A stretch of 32,007 nucleotides of DNA from a virus. Under the pieces are notes generated by a model. It made no database searches. It saw only the letters and a list, made by a program, of their open reading frames with translations, and had not been told where the DNA came from. Where the stretch lies: positions 1 to 32,007 of IMG/VR virus record IMGVR_UViG_3300042517_000492, one strand, 5' to 3'. Position numbers and translations under genes: made by a program. Position 1 is the first letter of the stretch. Each line of letters starts with the position of its first letter. This document shows, piece by piece, positions 4,492 through 28,739 of the stretch.

Positions 4492-6293
4492 ACGTCCTGG
4501 ATAAGCTCATTGGCTACTTCTCGCCAGAACGCGGAATCCGCAGGGCACAAGCTCGCAAACTAATGCGTAGCTATGCCGGGGCGGAATCCAGCCGACTAAA
4601 CGCAAACAAGAAACCTCGCAATCTAGCGGCAGACCAAGAGCTGATGGGACCGTTCGGAGCTGACGCCATGCGTGCGTGGGCTCGGTCGATGGTTCGCGAT
4701 AACTGCTATGCGTGGAACATCGTTGACACCATCGTATCGAACGTGGTCGGCTCAGGCATTACCGCTCAGTCCGTTCTAGAAGATAAAGACGGAAACGACC
4801 AGGAAGATATCAACGACCAACGCGACAAGGTGTTTTCAGAGTGGTGCGAAGTTGCTGACGTGAACGGGCAACTGAACTTTTACGAGATGCAGATTCTCGC
4901 AATGCGGGAAATGGTCGAAGCGGGTGAAGTGCTTATCCGAATTATTCGGACCAACGGCAAAGAATACAAAGGTATTTCGCGACCTGTTCCACTGGCGTTG
5001 GAAATCATCGAAGCGGATCGTCTCGCACTAGAGCGAGATACGTACAAGTCTGGCGGAATCCACGGCAACAACAAAGTCGTTCGCGGTGTTGAACTCGATG
5101 ACAAAGGCAAGCCAGTCGCGTACTGGATTTACCCGCAGCATCCGAGTAGCCCGTATTCATTCGGTCAGCAAATACCTGAGCGAGTTCCTGCACGCGAGAT
5201 TCTCCACTTATTCCGCAAAGACCGTGTGGGGCAGTCACGTGGCGTCAGTTGGCTTGCTCCAGTCATGTCAACGTTGCGAGATCTGGGAACTTACATCGAA
5301 AACGAACTAGCATCGTCAGCTATCGCGAGTTGTTTCGGCGTGGTCATCAAGACCAATACCCCTGGCGGCTCGCTACAGTTTCCGCAGGGTGAAAGCTCGG
5401 TTGACTCCAACGGCAATATGCTTGAGCAACTAGAGCCCGGCTTGGTCGCTCGCATTCGACCTGATGAGGATATTTCAGTTGTCGATCCAGCTAGACCAGC
5501 ATCGCAAAGCGAACCGTGGATTAACCTGATGCTACGCGGGTCAGCCGCAGGCACGGGAACGAACTACGAAGCGATTGCCAAGGACTTTTCCAAGACTAGC
5601 TACAGCAGTTCTCGCACTAGCAAACTAGAAGATCGTCCGCGATACAAGCGAGACCAGAACTACATCAAGTGGCATATGTGTCAACCGGTTTGGGATGCGT
5701 TTTGCGATGCAGCAGCATTTGCTGAGGTCGATGGATTCCCAACGGAAACAGAACTGCTTGAAGATCGACGCGGAGTAACGCCAGTCGAGTGGCAACTGCC
5801 AGAGCAGGAGTGGGTCGATCCTATGTCGGAGCAATCAGCATCGGAGGCAGCAATCAATTCGTTTACCGATACTGCCCAGCGTGTTTGCGGTGCTCGCGGC
5901 ATGTCCTATCGTGCGGTTTACTACCAGCGCATGAAAGAGGATCGGCTACGCAAAAAGCTAGGGTTGCTCACGGAGTCGGAACGTACCGCCCAAATGATGG
6001 CGGCTCAGACCGGGGCTATCGGTCCAGTTGATGAAGTCAACGCAAGTGCTGAGGGCGAATTAGTTGAGTCGGTCGGTGGCGAGTTTATGGGCATGAAGCG
6101 ACGCGACTGGTTAAACATTCGCAAGGCAGTTCGAGACGTGCAAAAGGACTTCATTGAAGGCAAGTCTACCGAAACATTTGCACGCACTGAATTGGCGATG
6201 CTAGGCGTTCCAGAACAGTTTGCCAACAGTCTCATCGATGATGCCAGAGACGGATCGGTTGATAACGTCGAGCCAGGTGAGGTGACAGCGTGA
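4488..6293 (+). CDS. Portal protein, lambda gpB family
   Basis: The 601-residue protein matches the lambda-type portal (Phage_portal_2). It has an N-terminal basic segment, then CYAWNIVDTIVSNVVGSGI, MREMVEAGEVLIRI and LALEIIEADRL, a central GTNYEAIAKDFSKTSYSSSR clip/wing segment typical of the family, and an acidic C-terminus. A dodecamer of it forms the DNA entry channel at one capsid vertex. It starts at ATG 4488 inside the ATGA overlap with the gpW-like gene and ends with a GTGA overlap into the capsid gene. Its length is usual for the family and no break is visible. Confidence 0.93.
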   Translation: MNVLDKLIGYFSPERGIRRAQARKLMRSYAGAESSRLNANKKPRNLAADQELMGPFGADAMRAWARSMVRDNCYAWNIVDTIVSNVVGSGITAQSVLEDKDGNDQEDINDQRDKVFSEWCEVADVNGQLNFYEMQILAMREMVEAGEVLIRIIRTNGKEYKGISRPVPLALEIIEADRLALERDTYKSGGIHGNNKVVRGVELDDKGKPVAYWIYPQHPSSPYSFGQQIPERVPAREILHLFRKDRVGQSRGVSWLAPVMSTLRDLGTYIENELASSAIASCFGVVIKTNTPGGSLQFPQGESSVDSNGNMLEQLEPGLVARIRPDEDISVVDPARPASQSEPWINLMLRGSAAGTGTNYEAIAKDFSKTSYSSSRTSKLEDRPRYKRDQNYIKWHMCQPVWDAFCDAAAFAEVDGFPTETELLEDRRGVTPVEWQLPEQEWVDPMSEQSASEAAINSFTDTAQRVCGARGMSYRAVYYQRMKEDRLRKKLGLLTESERTAQMMAAQTGAIGPVDEVNASAEGELVESVGGEFMGMKRRDWLNIRKAVRDVQKDFIEGKSTETFARTELAMLGVPEQFANSLIDDARDGSVDNVEPGEVTA

Positions 6294-8467
6294 ACAAGCA
6301 TCAGCTAGTTAAGCGACGCAAAGAGCTAGATCGAAAAGACGCGATCCAATCGACCAAGTGCGGAACGATTATGCGAATGGCGACGGTTATCGAGCCAAGC
6401 AAAGTCGTTATTGCTACAGAAACGCCCGTTGATAAATACGACGAGGAAACCGGGCAGGTAGTTCGCGAAGTGTTGCTGATGAGTGGTGCGATATTCCGCA
6501 ACGGTCGGAACCAAGTGCCAATCGTAGATAGTCACGACGACAGCACAGTCAGAAACATATTCGGGTCAGTCCGGAACATCCAGATCGATGCCATCAATGG
6601 CGAGATGTTTGGTGCTCCATCGTTCGCATCTGACAACGAATCGCAAACAGTATCGCAGCGGATAGCAGAAGGGCATATCACCGACTTCTCAATCACCGCC
6701 GATCCCGTGGAAAGCTACTACATCAAGCCAGGGCAGTCATACACGACTGAACGCGGCGAACTGATCGAAGGGCCAGCACTTATCCATAAAAGCTGGTACG
6801 TGCTCAACGCGAGCGTTTGCGCAACGGGTGCAGACGTAAATTCGAGGGTTGTTAGGTCATATACAGACCTGGATAGAGGAGTCAAAAGAATGAACGAAGC
6901 GGTACTCGCTAAGTTAAAAGAAAAAGGTCTGCCCGAAGGTATGACCGACCCAGCAGCGATCCTTGAATGGATGGTTGCCAACATGATGCCAGAGCAACCG
7001 CCAGTTGTCGAAAACATGGCAGCGGAACCAGTTGCTGCACCTGTTGAACCAGTGATGAACATGGAATCAGCGAAGCCAGCAGAAGAAATGGTTGCTCGCT
7101 CAATGGTCGAAGAAGAAGTTCAGCGTTCGGTTAACGCTGAGCGAACACGACTAAAAGAAATCAAAGCCGCCTGCAAACTCGCTCGCGTTGAGCGTGCATT
7201 CGAGGACGAGTTATGCAGCAGCGGAGTTTCGGTAAGTGATGCACGCAAGAGGATTATTGAACGTATGGCAACAGAACCAATTGGATCGTCGGTTGGTGCC
7301 GACGTTCGAGTTACTGGCGACGGGCAAGAGCGACAGTTTAACGCGATGCGAGACGGACTCGTTAAGCGTTCGCTGAAGTCTGCTCGCATTCGCAAGATCA
7401 ACATTGACAACAAAGACGCGGACGATTTCCAGCATATTAGCATGGGTCGGATTGCTGAATTGGTTTGTCGCTCGATGGGCGTCAACACCGATACAATGAG
7501 TGCAACCAACGTTGCTAAGCTCGCAATGGGCAATCGCCGATTGATGCAACAACACCGAGTTGAACGTGCTTATCACACGACTGGCAGCTTTGCCAACTTG
7601 CTGTTTGATGCAGCCAATAAGACATTGCTGGCAGCATACGAGGAAGCAGAATTCAGTTGGTCCATGTGGGCTCGACAAGCTCCAAGCGTTGCCGACTTCA
7701 AGAACATCAACCGCATTCGATTTAGTGAGTCGCCAGATCCAGAGATGGTCCCTGAGAAAGCCGACTACAAAGAGAAGGCAATGAGCGATTCGAAAGAATC
7801 GTACAAGGTTGAGAAGTACGGTGCACTGTTTACCGTTTCCTGGGAAACAGTTGTAAACGATGACTTGGACGCTATCAGTCGCGTTCCAGCGATGCACGGC
7901 AACGCATGCCGACGCAAGGTCAACAAGGAAGTGTACGCGGTCCTAACTGCTAACGCAGCGATGGCTGACAGTATTGCTTTGTTCAATGCGTCTCACAGCA
8001 ACTTGAGTGGGTCAAGCGGAAACCCAACCGTCACCAATCTTAACACCGCATTCGTTGCGATGATGCGTCAGACTGGCTTGTCCAGTGATGCGATTCTGAA
8101 CATTGTTCCACGTTACCTAATTGTGCCAGCGACTCTATCCGCAACCGCAGAAGAACTCGTAAGCTCGGTCAGCTACAACGCAGCGAACAACAACGAAGGC
8201 GTTAAGAACATCTACGGTCCTGGTGGCTCTCGTCCGCTAACTGTGATTGCAGAACCGCAGCTTGACTTGAACAGCACAACTCGATGGTACTTGGCAGCAG
8301 ATCCAAGCCAAATCGATACCGTTGAAGTCACGTTCTTGCAAGGTGAAGAATCCCCAGTCCTCGAAGATGAATGGGAATTCGATAACGACACCTACAAGTA
8401 CAAGGTCCGTCAAACATTCGGAACCAAGGCAATCGATTGGCGTGGACTCTACGCCTTTGGAACCTAA
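6290..8467 (+). CDS. Prohead protease - major capsid protein fusion
   Basis: One 725-residue frame carries two functions. Residues 30-180 resemble an HK97-type prohead protease (family U35): VPIVDSHDD at 77-84 gives the catalytic His82, and ITDFSIT gives the Ser at 134. Residues 200-400 are Ala/Glu-rich and helical (EEEVQRSVNAERTRLKEI), as expected of a scaffolding delta domain. Residues from about 430 on have HK97-fold capsid features (AEFSWSMWARQAPSVADFK, SWETVVNDDLDA, a C-terminal TFGTKAIDWRGLYAFGT). The protease would cut itself and the scaffold away after assembly. GTG 6290 overlaps the portal stop. Fusions of this layout are known; the fold assignment is by pattern only. Confidence 0.9.
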   Translation: MNKHQLVKRRKELDRKDAIQSTKCGTIMRMATVIEPSKVVIATETPVDKYDEETGQVVREVLLMSGAIFRNGRNQVPIVDSHDDSTVRNIFGSVRNIQIDAINGEMFGAPSFASDNESQTVSQRIAEGHITDFSITADPVESYYIKPGQSYTTERGELIEGPALIHKSWYVLNASVCATGADVNSRVVRSYTDLDRGVKRMNEAVLAKLKEKGLPEGMTDPAAILEWMVANMMPEQPPVVENMAAEPVAAPVEPVMNMESAKPAEEMVARSMVEEEVQRSVNAERTRLKEIKAACKLARVERAFEDELCSSGVSVSDARKRIIERMATEPIGSSVGADVRVTGDGQERQFNAMRDGLVKRSLKSARIRKINIDNKDADDFQHISMGRIAELVCRSMGVNTDTMSATNVAKLAMGNRRLMQQHRVERAYHTTGSFANLLFDAANKTLLAAYEEAEFSWSMWARQAPSVADFKNINRIRFSESPDPEMVPEKADYKEKAMSDSKESYKVEKYGALFTVSWETVVNDDLDAISRVPAMHGNACRRKVNKEVYAVLTANAAMADSIALFNASHSNLSGSSGNPTVTNLNTAFVAMMRQTGLSSDAILNIVPRYLIVPATLSATAEELVSSVSYNAANNNEGVKNIYGPGGSRPLTVIAEPQLDLNSTTRWYLAADPSQIDTVEVTFLQGEESPVLEDEWEFDNDTYKYKVRQTFGTKAIDWRGLYAFGT

Positions 8468-20188: not shown

Positions 20189-20271
20189 GCATCGGCGGCG
20201 TGTGGGAAACGCACAAGGCGAAGTCTGCCCTCCTGGTAGAAAGACAGACCGTTCGAATCGGTCCCGATGCA
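20189..20271 (+). ncRNA. tRNA-like domain (degenerate tRNA or mimic)
   Basis: A 7-bp acceptor-like stem, GCATCGG (20189-20195) with CCGATGC (20264-20270), encloses a perfect T arm, GACCG-TTCGAAT-CGGTC (20247-20263), which carries the canonical GTTCGAATC. A D-like stem GCGT/ACGC (20198-20201 with 20209-20212) has GG in its loop. The middle does not form a normal anticodon arm: the best stem GGC/GCC (20217-20219 with 20227-20229) has loop GAAGTCT without U33. No CCA follows. It may be a decayed tRNA, an RNA that mimics one, or a tRNA-derived attachment core. Confidence 0.5.
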
Positions 20272-25429: not shown

Positions 25430-25689
25430 TGAACCTAACCGACCTTCAGCAATTCGCCAACGAGTCAACCGACGAGCGCGTGAAATGCCTATGGCAACAG
25501 TTGCAAGTCTCACGGTCCAGGGCGGCGAAGAACCAGCGGAAGAAAGACGAACTGGCGAAGGAAAACGCGAGGATGCGGCGGTTGCTGCGAAAGGTGGCAC
25601 GGTCGGATGAGTTTGAACGGGGCAAGCGTTACACGACGATTGCAGTGGAGAACGAAACTATGGATGAGATTGGGGAGGTGTACTTGTGA
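25429..25689 (+). CDS. Small coiled-coil protein
   Basis: The 86-residue product from ATG 25429 is dominated by a basic coiled coil at residues 20-60 (RAAKNQRKKDELAKENARMR RLL pattern, Leu/Met heptads). It ends with EIGEVYL. It may oligomerise or bind nucleic acid. No family recognised; coupled to both neighbours by short overlaps. Confidence 0.55.
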   Translation: MNLTDLQQFANESTDERVKCLWQQLQVSRSRAAKNQRKKDELAKENARMRRLLRKVARSDEFERGKRYTTIAVENETMDEIGEVYL

Positions 25690-26084
25690 CGGTTTTAACG
25701 CAGTTAACGCTATGGCAACAAGAGCAACGTTTTTTCCCGTACTGGATGTGGGAAGATTTTAAGGCAGGAATGTATAAGCAGACTAAACCAGATGAGTTGG
25801 ATAGTAGCGTTGCTAAAGCGGTTGCGATTCTAGGCGACTCTGAACTGTGTGAATCGTCAATGAGACGTTGCGTTAACGAGTGGAAGCACGCGGCATCTGA
25901 GAACCTAAGCGACGCGACTAAGAATAGGCGACCGTGGCTAGGTAGAGCGTGCTGTTGCATCGAAGCAGGCGTTAGGGATGACGCCGTTCGCATCGCGTGG
26001 TGGCAGCTAACTGAAGAACAAAGAGATACGGCAAACACGATAGCAGACATGATCATAAGAGAGTGGGAAAAGCAACATGCATAA
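25686..26084 (+). CDS. Unknown protein coupled to the IbrA-like gene
   Basis: The 132-residue product from GTG 25686 (GTGA overlap) begins LTQLTLWQQEQRFFPYWMWE. It has a Cys-rich helix (RPWLGRACCCIEAGVRDDAV) and ends in a long helix with many aromatic and acidic residues. It overlaps the IbrA-like gene by eight bases, so the two are probably translated together. I do not recognise the family. The coupling suggests a partner or regulator of the IbrAB-like pair. Confidence 0.55.
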   Translation: MTVLTQLTLWQQEQRFFPYWMWEDFKAGMYKQTKPDELDSSVAKAVAILGDSELCESSMRRCVNEWKHAASENLSDATKNRRPWLGRACCCIEAGVRDDAVRIAWWQLTEEQRDTANTIADMIIREWEKQHA

Positions 26085-27309
26085 GCGGTTTATTGGCGTC
26101 AATGTACTTGACGCAGCAAGAGAACGTATAGCGTGGACGTTCGACAGATTCGAGCGAATCTACATTTCGTTTTCAGGCGGCAAAGACTCAACGGTGATGA
26201 TGCATCTAGTCATGGATGAAGCCGTTAAACGCAAGCGAAAAATCGGTTGCCTATTCATTGATTGGGAATGTCAATTTACGCTGACAGTTGACCATGTTGC
26301 AGCGATGTACGAGGAGTATAAAGACAACATTGAACCGTATTGGGTCGCGTTGCCAATCAAGACATGGAACGGCTGTTCAATGCACGAACCAGAGTGGACA
26401 GCGTGGGAGGAATCCAAGAAAGACATTTGGGTACGAGACAAGCACGAAATGTCGATCACGGACAAGAACAAGTTTCCGTTCTATTGGGACGGAATGATGT
26501 TTGAGGAGTTCACGCCACTATTTGCGAAATGGTACTCACAAGGCAAAGACTGTGCGTGTTTTGTTGGCATCAGAACTGCGGAAAGTCTTAACCGATTCAG
26601 GAGCCTAGCTAGGACGGACAAGATCGGTTTGGAGGGCAGGCAGTACACAACCAACGTGGTTGACAACTGCTGGAACATTTACCCAATTTACGACTGGACC
26701 GTCGAAGATGATTGGACGTACTTAGGCAAGTTTCAGAAGTCTTACAACAAGCTCTACGACCTGATGCACAAGGCTGGGTTGACACTCGCGCAGATGCGAA
26801 TTGACGAGCCGTTTGGAGATACGCAACGCAGGGGTTTATGGATGTATCAAATCATTGAACCTAAGCTGTGGGCGAAAATGTCGTGTCGCGTTTCAGGTGC
26901 CAACACAGGCCGAATGTACGGCGAGGAGTCAGGCAACATTTTAGGCAACAGAAGCGTGTCGCTTCCTGCGGGTCATACCTGGGAATCGTTCTGCCGTTTT
27001 CTTCTTGGATCAATACCACCAAGAACAGCGGAACACTACAAGAACAAACTAGCTAAGTACATCCAATGGTATCGCGAAAGAGGCTATCCGGATGGCATTC
27101 CAGACGCAGCCGACAAGGATCTTGAAGCCAGGGACTTGGTGCCATCTTGGAGACGGATAGCCAAAGCACTTTTGAAGAACGACTACTGGTTGAAAACGCT
27201 TGGGTTTAGCCCAACCAAAAGCAGTGCATACGACAAGTATCTCCAGTTGATGAGACGAAAGAGGGCGGAGTGGAACTTATTCAAAGAGGACAACAATGAA
27301 CCAGCTTAA
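26077..27309 (+). CDS. IbrA-like PAPS-reductase-family protein (DUF3440)
   Basis: The 410-residue protein has the PP-loop of the PAPS reductase/ATP sulfurylase fold, SFSGGKDSTVMMHL, with SGGKDS at 33-38, which binds the pyrophosphate of an adenylated substrate. FVGIRTAESLNRF and IYPIYDWTVEDDW follow as family segments. The C-terminal DUF3440 portion (RVSGANTGRMYGEESGNILG, WESFCRFLLGSIPPRTAEHY) matches IbrA, known with IbrB as a pair that activates eib genes in some E. coli. The biochemical reaction of IbrA is not established; nucleotide activation or sulfur transfer to DNA or protein is plausible. The next gene, overlapping by 14 bases, is the IbrB-like partner. Confidence 0.88.
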   Translation: MHKRFIGVNVLDAARERIAWTFDRFERIYISFSGGKDSTVMMHLVMDEAVKRKRKIGCLFIDWECQFTLTVDHVAAMYEEYKDNIEPYWVALPIKTWNGCSMHEPEWTAWEESKKDIWVRDKHEMSITDKNKFPFYWDGMMFEEFTPLFAKWYSQGKDCACFVGIRTAESLNRFRSLARTDKIGLEGRQYTTNVVDNCWNIYPIYDWTVEDDWTYLGKFQKSYNKLYDLMHKAGLTLAQMRIDEPFGDTQRRGLWMYQIIEPKLWAKMSCRVSGANTGRMYGEESGNILGNRSVSLPAGHTWESFCRFLLGSIPPRTAEHYKNKLAKYIQWYRERGYPDGIPDAADKDLEARDLVPSWRRIAKALLKNDYWLKTLGFSPTKSSAYDKYLQLMRRKRAEWNLFKEDNNEPA

Positions 27310-27970
27310 TTTGTTTGACGGCGACGACGCTTTTGAGAAGCAAATCGAATCCGATATTGCTCCATTAATTGCGAAAATATCATGCATGAAATTGGCCGAC
27401 AAGGTTTCGGCATTGAACATCATAAGGGCAGCGTTGCACGAGGTCAGCCCATTTGCGGAGGAACCTGTTGATTGCGTTTTGTGGGTCAAGAATGCGACCG
27501 TTTTTGCCAACGACTACAACCCCAATAGCGTAGCTCCAACGGAAATGAAACTGCTGGAACTGAGCATTCTGCAAGATGGCTACACGCAGCCGATTGTGAC
27601 AATGCCAACGGCAGCAGGTAGCGAAGTAGTTGACGGATTCCACAGGAACAGGGTCGGCAAGGAGAGCAAGCCAGTCAAGGAACGGGTACGCGGATACTTG
27701 CCAGTGGTGCGAATTAAGAGCGACAGAACAGATAAGCCGGATCGAATGGCGGCGACCATTAGACACAACAGGGCTAGGGGGGCTCACAAGGTTGATTCTA
27801 TGTCTGAAATCGTAGTCGAACTTAAGCGTCGGAATTGGTCCGATGAAAAGATCGGCAAAGAGCTTGGTATGGACGCAGACGAGGTGCTACGGCTAACGCA
27901 GATAAGCGGATTGGCTGAGATGTTTAAGGACAGGGACTTTTCCGAGGCTTGGGAAATCGAGCACGAGTAG
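27296..27970 (+). CDS. IbrB-like ParB/Srx-fold protein
   Basis: The 224-residue protein carries the ParB nucleotide-binding boxes: EVVDGFHRNRVG at 110-121 (the GxHR-type box) and IRHNRARGAHKVDSM at 155-169. A helix-turn-helix follows at about 182-205 (DEKIGKELGMDADEVLRLTQ). The N-terminal 60 residues are specific to this type. ParB-fold proteins can be CTPase clamps, nucleases or sulfiredoxin relatives. Next to a DUF3440 protein it is the IbrB partner. The pair is common on phages and islands, sometimes regulating host surface genes. Its role here is unproven. Confidence 0.88.
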   Translation: MNQLNLFDGDDAFEKQIESDIAPLIAKISCMKLADKVSALNIIRAALHEVSPFAEEPVDCVLWVKNATVFANDYNPNSVAPTEMKLLELSILQDGYTQPIVTMPTAAGSEVVDGFHRNRVGKESKPVKERVRGYLPVVRIKSDRTDKPDRMAATIRHNRARGAHKVDSMSEIVVELKRRNWSDEKIGKELGMDADEVLRLTQISGLAEMFKDRDFSEAWEIEHE

Positions 27971-27993
27971 CTAGGAAACCACAGGAGGCGGAA

Positions 27994-28227
27994 ATGATTG
28001 ACAAGGACTGGTTAAAATGCGAGAATTTACGATGCGGGATTGGTAGTCCAGCAAGTCTAGGAATCTTTCAGAGTTCAACATGGAGTGTTGTGCGCGGGCA
28101 CTTTCTGTGCGCCCGGTCCTTGACCCGGTACTACCAACCGCGCCAACATTCCGCCTTGATTGGTAGTCAGGCGACAAGGATTAAGGATTCTGTTATTAGG
28201 AGGGTAGGGTTATGTCTACACACGTAG
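27994..28227 (+). CDS. Possible 77-residue protein across a repeat-rich region
   Basis: AGGAGG (27983-27988) is five bases before ATG 27994, a very strong initiation site. The product begins MIDKDWLKCENLRCGIGSPA; the rest is of low protein-like quality (SALIGSQATRIKDSVIRRVG) and overlaps the next gene. A second frame in the same RNA gives two short peptides, both ending in Asp-Trp-stop at the GATTGGTAG repeats (28017-28046 and 28080-28166). The initiation site may therefore serve a leader peptide or a decayed gene. Confidence 0.35.
   Translation: MIDKDWLKCENLRCGIGSPASLGIFQSSTWSVVRGHFLCARSLTRYYQPRQHSALIGSQATRIKDSVIRRVGLCLHT
28038..28168 (+). repeat. Direct and inverted repeats in the leader before the nuclease gene
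   Basis: GATTGGTAGTC occurs at 28038-28048 and 28158-28168; its inverse ACTACCAA is at 28130-28137. The inverse can pair with either copy, giving mutually exclusive hairpins. Between them, CGGGC/GCCCG (about 28095-28115) and CCGG-type stems fold around short loops. This resembles an attenuator or switch; alternatively the repeats are protein-binding sites. Confidence 0.5.
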
Positions 28228-28739
28228 ATAAGTCTCAGTTGAGGGCAATTCCAACTGAGTATCGCGGGGTTACGTACAGGTCGAAGTCTGAAGCGATGTT
28301 TGCTGTGTTTCTGAGTTATTACTTAGAAGCACGATTGCGAGATAGGAGGTATATCGCTGCAGGGCTTGAGTACGAACCAGCATGGTCAAAGGTAGGTGAC
28401 TACGTTTTCGACTTCTGCTTTCACATTGTCCGCCCAAGTGAAAGTGGAGTTGTGTATAGCCGAGCGTTGATTGAGTACAAGCCTAAATTCACCACCGCAT
28501 CGTATCAAAACCGTTTTGTTAATCGATGCAAAAAAGCAGAGAAAGCTCTTTCCTCTCAGCCATGCGAAATTCAGTTTTATTTAGCTGAGATAGATTTCTG
28601 GAACTGCGAATCAAGAAAGCTGAAATGCAACAAAGACACTTGGCAACTAGAGGTTTTCTTTGAGAGAAATTTCCTGACTCCAGAGCACTGTGAATTTATC
28701 AGGAGTACTAGGTTTGATTTAGTTGGCGGAAGTCGTTGA
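28212..28739 (+). CDS. PD-(D/E)XK-type nuclease (DUF1064-like)
   Basis: The 175-residue protein opens with EYRGVTYRSKSEAMFAVFLS, the 'YRGxxFRSxxEAxxA' start of small phage nucleases. It continues LEYEPAWSKVGDYVFDFCFH with the metal Asp and ALIEYKPKF with the Glu-x-Lys pair. The C-terminal half holds CNKDTWQLEVFFER. Such enzymes can act as Holliday-junction or DNA-repair nucleases. AGGAGGG precedes ATG 28212 by several bases. The gene is AT-richer than its neighbours. The exact substrate is not evident. Confidence 0.7.
   Translation: MSTHVDKSQLRAIPTEYRGVTYRSKSEAMFAVFLSYYLEARLRDRRYIAAGLEYEPAWSKVGDYVFDFCFHIVRPSESGVVYSRALIEYKPKFTTASYQNRFVNRCKKAEKALSSQPCEIQFYLAEIDFWNCESRKLKCNKDTWQLEVFFERNFLTPEHCEFIRSTRFDLVGGSR

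Follow-up and report, generated by a model that had tools for sequence, protein, structure and literature searches.

A putative third component of the IbrA-IbrB pair in phages

The phage DNA analysed here (in the following the window, a 32,007-base viral record of IMG/VR) carries a cassette of three genes, and sequence comparisons support it well as a conserved three-component variant of the known but unexplained IbrAB pair. Next to ibrA and ibrB it contains a small gene, here termed X, whose product is very probably a true third subunit of the IbrA-IbrB system. Hundreds of viral genomes and the chromosome of E. coli K-12 encode IbrA and IbrB. X is tied to the viral form, so an activity may have been overlooked in studies restricted to E. 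coli IbrAB.

The preliminary description had presented the genes as overlapping and the two larger ones as IbrA- and IbrB-like, and both statements held. The reading frames lie exactly where it had placed them, with overlaps of 8 bases between X and ibrA (26077-26084) and 14 bases between ibrA and ibrB (27296-27309), and IbrA of the window shares 45% identity with E. coli YbdN, while its IbrB shares 54% with YbdM. X starts with a GTG codon that is preceded by a strong Shine-Dalgarno sequence (GGGGAGG).

Table 1 Features of the cassette in the window and related loci with accessory genes.
Feature	Position in the window or loci	Strand	Description
X (third gene)	25686..26084	+	132 aa; all-helical; family not assigned; proposed third subunit
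Conserved X domain	25725..26069	+	profile match
IbrA-like protein	26077..27309	+	410 aa; PP-loop ATPase (PAPS-reductase/CysD/FAD-synthase fold) and DUF3440
PP-loop motif SGGKDS of IbrA	26173..26190	+	residues 33-38
C-terminal helical domain of IbrA	27034..27264	+	about residues 320-396
IbrB-like protein	27296..27970	+	224 aa; ParB/Srx-type domain, then helix-turn-helix-like region
D-G-[F]-H-R motif of IbrB	27632..27646	+	residues 113-117; invariant; GERR at this place in canonical ParB
Cupin-bearing loci	L033, L057, L058, L073, L074, L080, L102, L114, L115		in or beside the ibrAB-X operon
SNF2-helicase loci	L031, L121-L124, L131, L132, L047, L067		Firmicutes, Fusobacterium and Flavobacterium phages

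Linkage of X to ibrA and ibrB

IMG/VR was scanned with the alignment of the X family as the only query, and ibrA and ibrB were then located in the fetched loci with a profile for each. Patterns derived from the X sequence of the window alone found no relatives in IMG/VR, so the family alignment was needed. It revealed 549 relatives, and the loci of the best 80 were retrieved. The check for co-occurrence of the unknown gene with ibrAB was strongly positive: within these best 80 of 549, both ibrA and ibrB were present at 73 of 73 uncut loci, and in the remaining seven a contig end falls inside or beside the cassette. The three genes were located on one strand in 80 of these 80 loci, with a gap between the X and IbrA domains that never exceeded 438 bases. 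A chance neighbourhood was ruled out, as a query built from X only still led to A and B in 73/73 testable loci.

The same arrangement was observed in other collections. Six GenBank phage records match X of the window and ibrA and ibrB adjoin it in all six; three of these records are closely related Mycobacterium phages, which leaves about four independent lineages. The ibrA gene itself is carried by just 216 of 50,697 GenBank phage records. Four bacterial metagenome-assembled contigs contain X as well, again adjoined by A and B.

The order of the genes varies among loci (X-A-B, B-X-A, A-B-X and A-X-B). Furthermore, 32 loci that represent 14 distinct sequence clusters have X fused to the C-terminal end of IbrB, and the fusion reading frames, with IbrB first and X following, encode 366-393 aa in many loci. 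A natural fusion is strong evidence that X cooperates physically with IbrB. An IbrA tree with 83 rows, which was inferred with a quick method and contains several long branches, shows at least 11 changes of gene order among the X-bearing loci and 8 changes in the presence of X. As judged from these loci, the cassette keeps its members while reshuffling their order. Because the three genes stay together through inheritance and rearrangement and X often forms one polypeptide with IbrB, X very probably works physically with this protein. The third gene had been described as coupled to the pair, and the result is stronger than that claim, namely an obligate neighbourhood together with fusion to IbrB. 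The natural IbrB-X fusions and X thereby offer a concrete complex for purification and assay. Within the literature covered, which was partial, no publication describing a third gene of ibrAB was found. One phage contig (L087, 1953-5492) contains a tandem double cassette in the order A-B-B-X-A.

The E. coli pair IbrA-IbrB/YbdN-YbdM belongs to the same two families as the pair in the window and is likewise encoded by adjacent overlapping genes. Unlike the window, however, ybdNM and the E. coli phage copy PhiR5_2 have neither an X gene nor an X fusion; ybdN and ybdM of E. coli K-12 overlap by 28 bases and no third gene is present. IbrA was detected in 8 of 398 Pseudomonadota genomes, and X was found at 0 of 7 of the corresponding loci, one locus that had been chosen for having X being left out. 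That X is an overlooked part of ibrAB in bacteria was therefore ruled out for the sampled loci (0/7). Since the X-less E. coli YbdN/IbrA clade branches beside the IbrA clade of the window, the tree suits a cassette that lost X before it settled on the E. coli chromosome, although the change may have run in the opposite direction.

Properties of X and IbrB

Pfam, PHROGs and PADLOC contain no family that matches the X sequence of the window, and 20 of its relatives gave no credible family in PHROGs, Pfam or NCBIfam. Its structure is predicted with very high confidence (pLDDT 93.7, pTM 0.85) and is all helical. A Foldseek comparison of this model with the PDB returned no resembling entry (best E 2.1, TM at most about 0.3), which ruled out a known fold, and in BFVD only one clear match was obtained (A0A649V0K8, 34% identical). 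Near-invariant residues of X are W22, E23, G28, W66, L74, N80, G86, A116 and A120.

In comparison to its counterpart in locus L006, X has changed mainly at synonymous positions (pN 0.30, pS 0.83), and X is considered a real gene because its relatives differ mostly at such sites. Between the same two loci pN was 0.07 for IbrA and 0.06 for IbrB, so that the X protein evolves about 4-5 times faster than A and B, with synonymous sites saturated in all three genes. X is clearly constrained although it is fast-evolving, since pN is well below pS. This pattern of rates suits a putative specificity or interaction subunit.

IbrB belongs to phrog_2159 ('ParB-like partition protein', E 2.8e-71). Its single sequence is a sub-threshold match to Pfam ParB_N (E 0.065), and the family profile matches solved ParB/Noc/Spo0J N-domains (best E 1e-6), to which the N-terminal domain of IbrB is homologous. 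It differs from ParB/Noc/Spo0J in the invariant DG[F]HR, present as DGFHR instead of the GERR-type CTP motif, in an RHNRARG block and in having a PP-loop enzyme as partner. A ParA partner was found in none of the window proteins scanned.

Chemistry of IbrA and possible functions of the cassette

IbrA contains the Pfam domains DUF3440 (PF11922, E 6.6e-35) and PAPS_reduct (PF01507, E 4.8e-15). It falls into phrog_2302 (E 3.8e-87), which is named 'phosphoadenosine phosphosulfate reductase' in PHROGs and classed as an auxiliary metabolic gene. CysH, the usual label of viral IbrA, is of the same fold family and among the nearest structures to the AlphaFold model of IbrA (pLDDT 84; 6vpu, E 1.3e-8). 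A true cysH, acting as an auxiliary gene of sulfate assimilation, is nevertheless hardly conceivable. The catalytic CGxH motif is present in 0 of 81 IbrA relatives and is not found in IbrA of the window, whereas E. coli CysH, our positive control, contains it (KRECGLHEG) and lacks GGKDS, its PP-loop region reading SSSFGIQ. This absence, viewed against the positive control, ruled out a true CysH/PAPS reductase. IbrA furthermore differs from CysH in its extra DUF3440 region and in its operon, where it is obligately linked to IbrB and X. Because the PP-loop is intact (G35-K36-D37-S38 is kept in 81 of 82 sequences) but the CysH catalytic motif is absent, IbrA is, on sequence grounds, not a PAPS reductase. 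An auxiliary metabolic gene family of 'PAPS reductases' without the catalytic motif means that part of the literature on viral 'cysH' and sulfur metabolism may need re-examination.

The IbrA model also resembles FAD synthase, with an rmsd of 3.8 and a TMt of 0.65, and CysD, with a TMt of 0.63; both are among the best structural and profile matches of IbrA. Both eukaryotic FAD synthase and CysD, an ATP sulfurylase, share the fold of IbrA and differ from it in the C-terminal region; no CysN partner was seen beside IbrA. Transfer of AMP by FAD synthase and CysD needs no cysteine. Among 82 IbrA relatives, no alignment column exceeded 80% cysteine, and the four best cysteine columns are occupied by L, D, A and A in the protein of the window. 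Since the PP-loop is kept, CGxH and conserved cysteines are missing and the fold is close to CysD and FAD synthase, the chemistry of IbrA is likely to be a cysteine-independent adenylation, not the reduction of sulfate or a thiolation through cysteine. In about 19 loci X adjoins a separate small gene which duplicates the C-terminal IbrA domain, and in locus L114 an extra copy of this domain is fused to IbrA itself.

The best explanation for the whole, which we put forward tentatively, is that the three proteins form one ATP-dependent adenylating complex with IbrB-X as targeting arm, possibly a DNA-modifying one. IbrA, with its intact PP-loop, would adenylate a substrate (ATP -> AMP + PPi) in the way of CysD, FAD synthase or TilS and without cysteine-bound sulfur. 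IbrB, which combines a ParB/Srx NTP-binding fold with a helix-turn-helix-like region, would bind DNA and position or license the reaction, and X could serve as a fast-evolving helical adaptor that confers target or partner specificity on IbrB. X is dispensable for some function, because A and B persist in E. coli although it is absent there. Speculatively, the substrate might be phage or host DNA, and the cassette a small nucleic-acid modification device that alters restriction sensitivity or gene expression; in this case the reported effect of IbrAB on prophage (eib) gene expression would be secondary. DNA as the target is a possibility that we favour weakly, because IbrB is of a DNA-binding type, helicases accompany the pair and a few relatives, L006 among them, have a cytosine methylase nearby. 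Against a modification of DNA stand the cytosine methylase being close to the cassette in just about 5 relatives and the 14 window proteins, among which no Dnd partners were recognised. A more specific version is unlikely as it stands: guided by an IbrB-X arm with a new fold, the PP-loop enzyme, free of cysteine, would adenylate a base and attach to it an amine or small molecule, which an ectoine-synthase-like cupin would process in some lineages. If it were true, the widely reported viral 'cysH' genes of the IbrA family would be DNA-modification genes and ybdNM of E. coli a domesticated two-gene remnant.

A serious rival to the adenylating complex is a module of transcription control, in which IbrA would make or consume an adenylated small molecule, IbrB, as a DNA-binding protein of ParB fold, would sense it and X would act as adaptor, so that genes of the phage or the host are switched and no nucleic acid is modified. 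The phenotype reported for IbrAB in E. coli is transcriptional. Enzymes that act on small molecules, among them CysD and FAD synthase as adenylyl transferases, are nearest to IbrA in fold, and the C-terminus of IbrB is helix-turn-helix-like. The rival is strengthened by an ectoine-synthase-like cupin (PF06339), which suggests a small molecule: it occurs in nine loci, where its gene often separates A from B (E about 1e-33 to 1e-35 among the members scanned), and fusions of it are seen (L034; gp104 of mycobacteriophage Gaia, where the partner is IbrB). IbrAB is also annotated as a co-activator of prophage gene expression and treated as such (PMC4490671), and ybdNM is an operon repressed by CitR (PMC9068703). 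Yet regulation by IbrAB is possibly indirect, and SNF2-type helicases (~400 aa), which overlap or flank X-less ibrAB in Streptococcus, Lactobacillus, Flavobacterium and Fusobacterium phages, fit work on DNA better. These helicases were found in 7 of 23 X-less and 2 of 106 X-bearing loci, which are not independent of each other, and are thus nearly exclusive with X. Taken together, we regard a pure regulator as rather unlikely. Still less probable is a module for host takeover or competition, be it a toxin-antitoxin system, superinfection exclusion or anti-defence AMPylation of proteins. The accessory-type genes, and an X that evolves fast compared with A and B, would be in line with this, and a Listeria IbrAB pair was listed as a putative toxin-antitoxin system by neighbourhood alone (PMC7020466); however, enterobacteria carry the pair on their chromosomes, where it is broadly conserved, and no known toxin domain is present.

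A PP-loop ATPase next to a partner of the ParB superfamily also recalls DndB and DndC of DNA phosphorothioation, a parallel which had been drawn in the preliminary description and which stands at the level of the folds only, as the cysteines of the sulfur enzyme DndC are absent. Nucleic-acid modification and evasion of host defence, both named in the preliminary description, are possible roles. The invariant DGxHR of IbrB is reminiscent of DGQHR in DndB. PADLOC gave weak matches of IbrA to DndC (33 bits) and BrxP (24 bits), such as any PP-loop relative gives. The pair of folds and the weak DndC match would be compatible with a DndB/DndC-like sulfur modification of nucleic acid, the sulfur being supplied by a host desulfurase, but we consider this very unlikely. 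DndC has three cluster cysteines (4Fe-4S) and a catalytic cysteine dyad, and DndB is related to ParB (PMC10853773); in contrast, IbrA is without conserved cysteines for an Fe-S cluster or a persulfide relay. Besides IbrA, PADLOC recognised no Dnd partner (DndA, DndD or DndE) among the 14 window proteins scanned, from a record that may be incomplete, and the cassette has the helical X as partner instead. The cysteine analysis of 82 IbrA relatives ruled out close DndC homology in the sense of membership, and IbrA is probably not a sulfur transferase of the DndC type.

Movement of the cassette and its context

The window (26422-28302) and locus L008 (1-1881) are 99-100% identical over ibrA, ibrB and 0.3 kb beyond, and the identity then decreases to some 45% within the following gene (28212-28739). 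This drop looks like a recombination edge, and the cassette seems to move between phages. The cassette of L006 is 90% identical to that of the window, and the 13.2 kb surrounding it have little in common with the window except for an exonuclease region with 41-50% identity. L006 also contains a C5-cytosine methylase about 480 bases downstream of ibrB. Methyltransferase partners in Bacillus, Arthrobacter and Rhizobium phages were discarded, as these are annotations without Pfam support.

Promoter and terminator scans around the cassette stayed at chance level, an Rfam search gave no match, and the sequence 3' of ibrB folded no better than shuffled sequence (z -0.59), so that a structured RNA at this place was discarded. 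Other genes of the window code for a terminase, a portal protein, a capsid/protease protein, a DnaB helicase, RusA and an exonuclease. A tRNA-Thr with the anticodon AGT was predicted at 20189-20271. The reading frame at 6290-8467 encodes a single protein of 725 aa that matches phrog_4523 ('major head and protease protein', E 3e-125) and is, by this match, a capsid-protease fusion.
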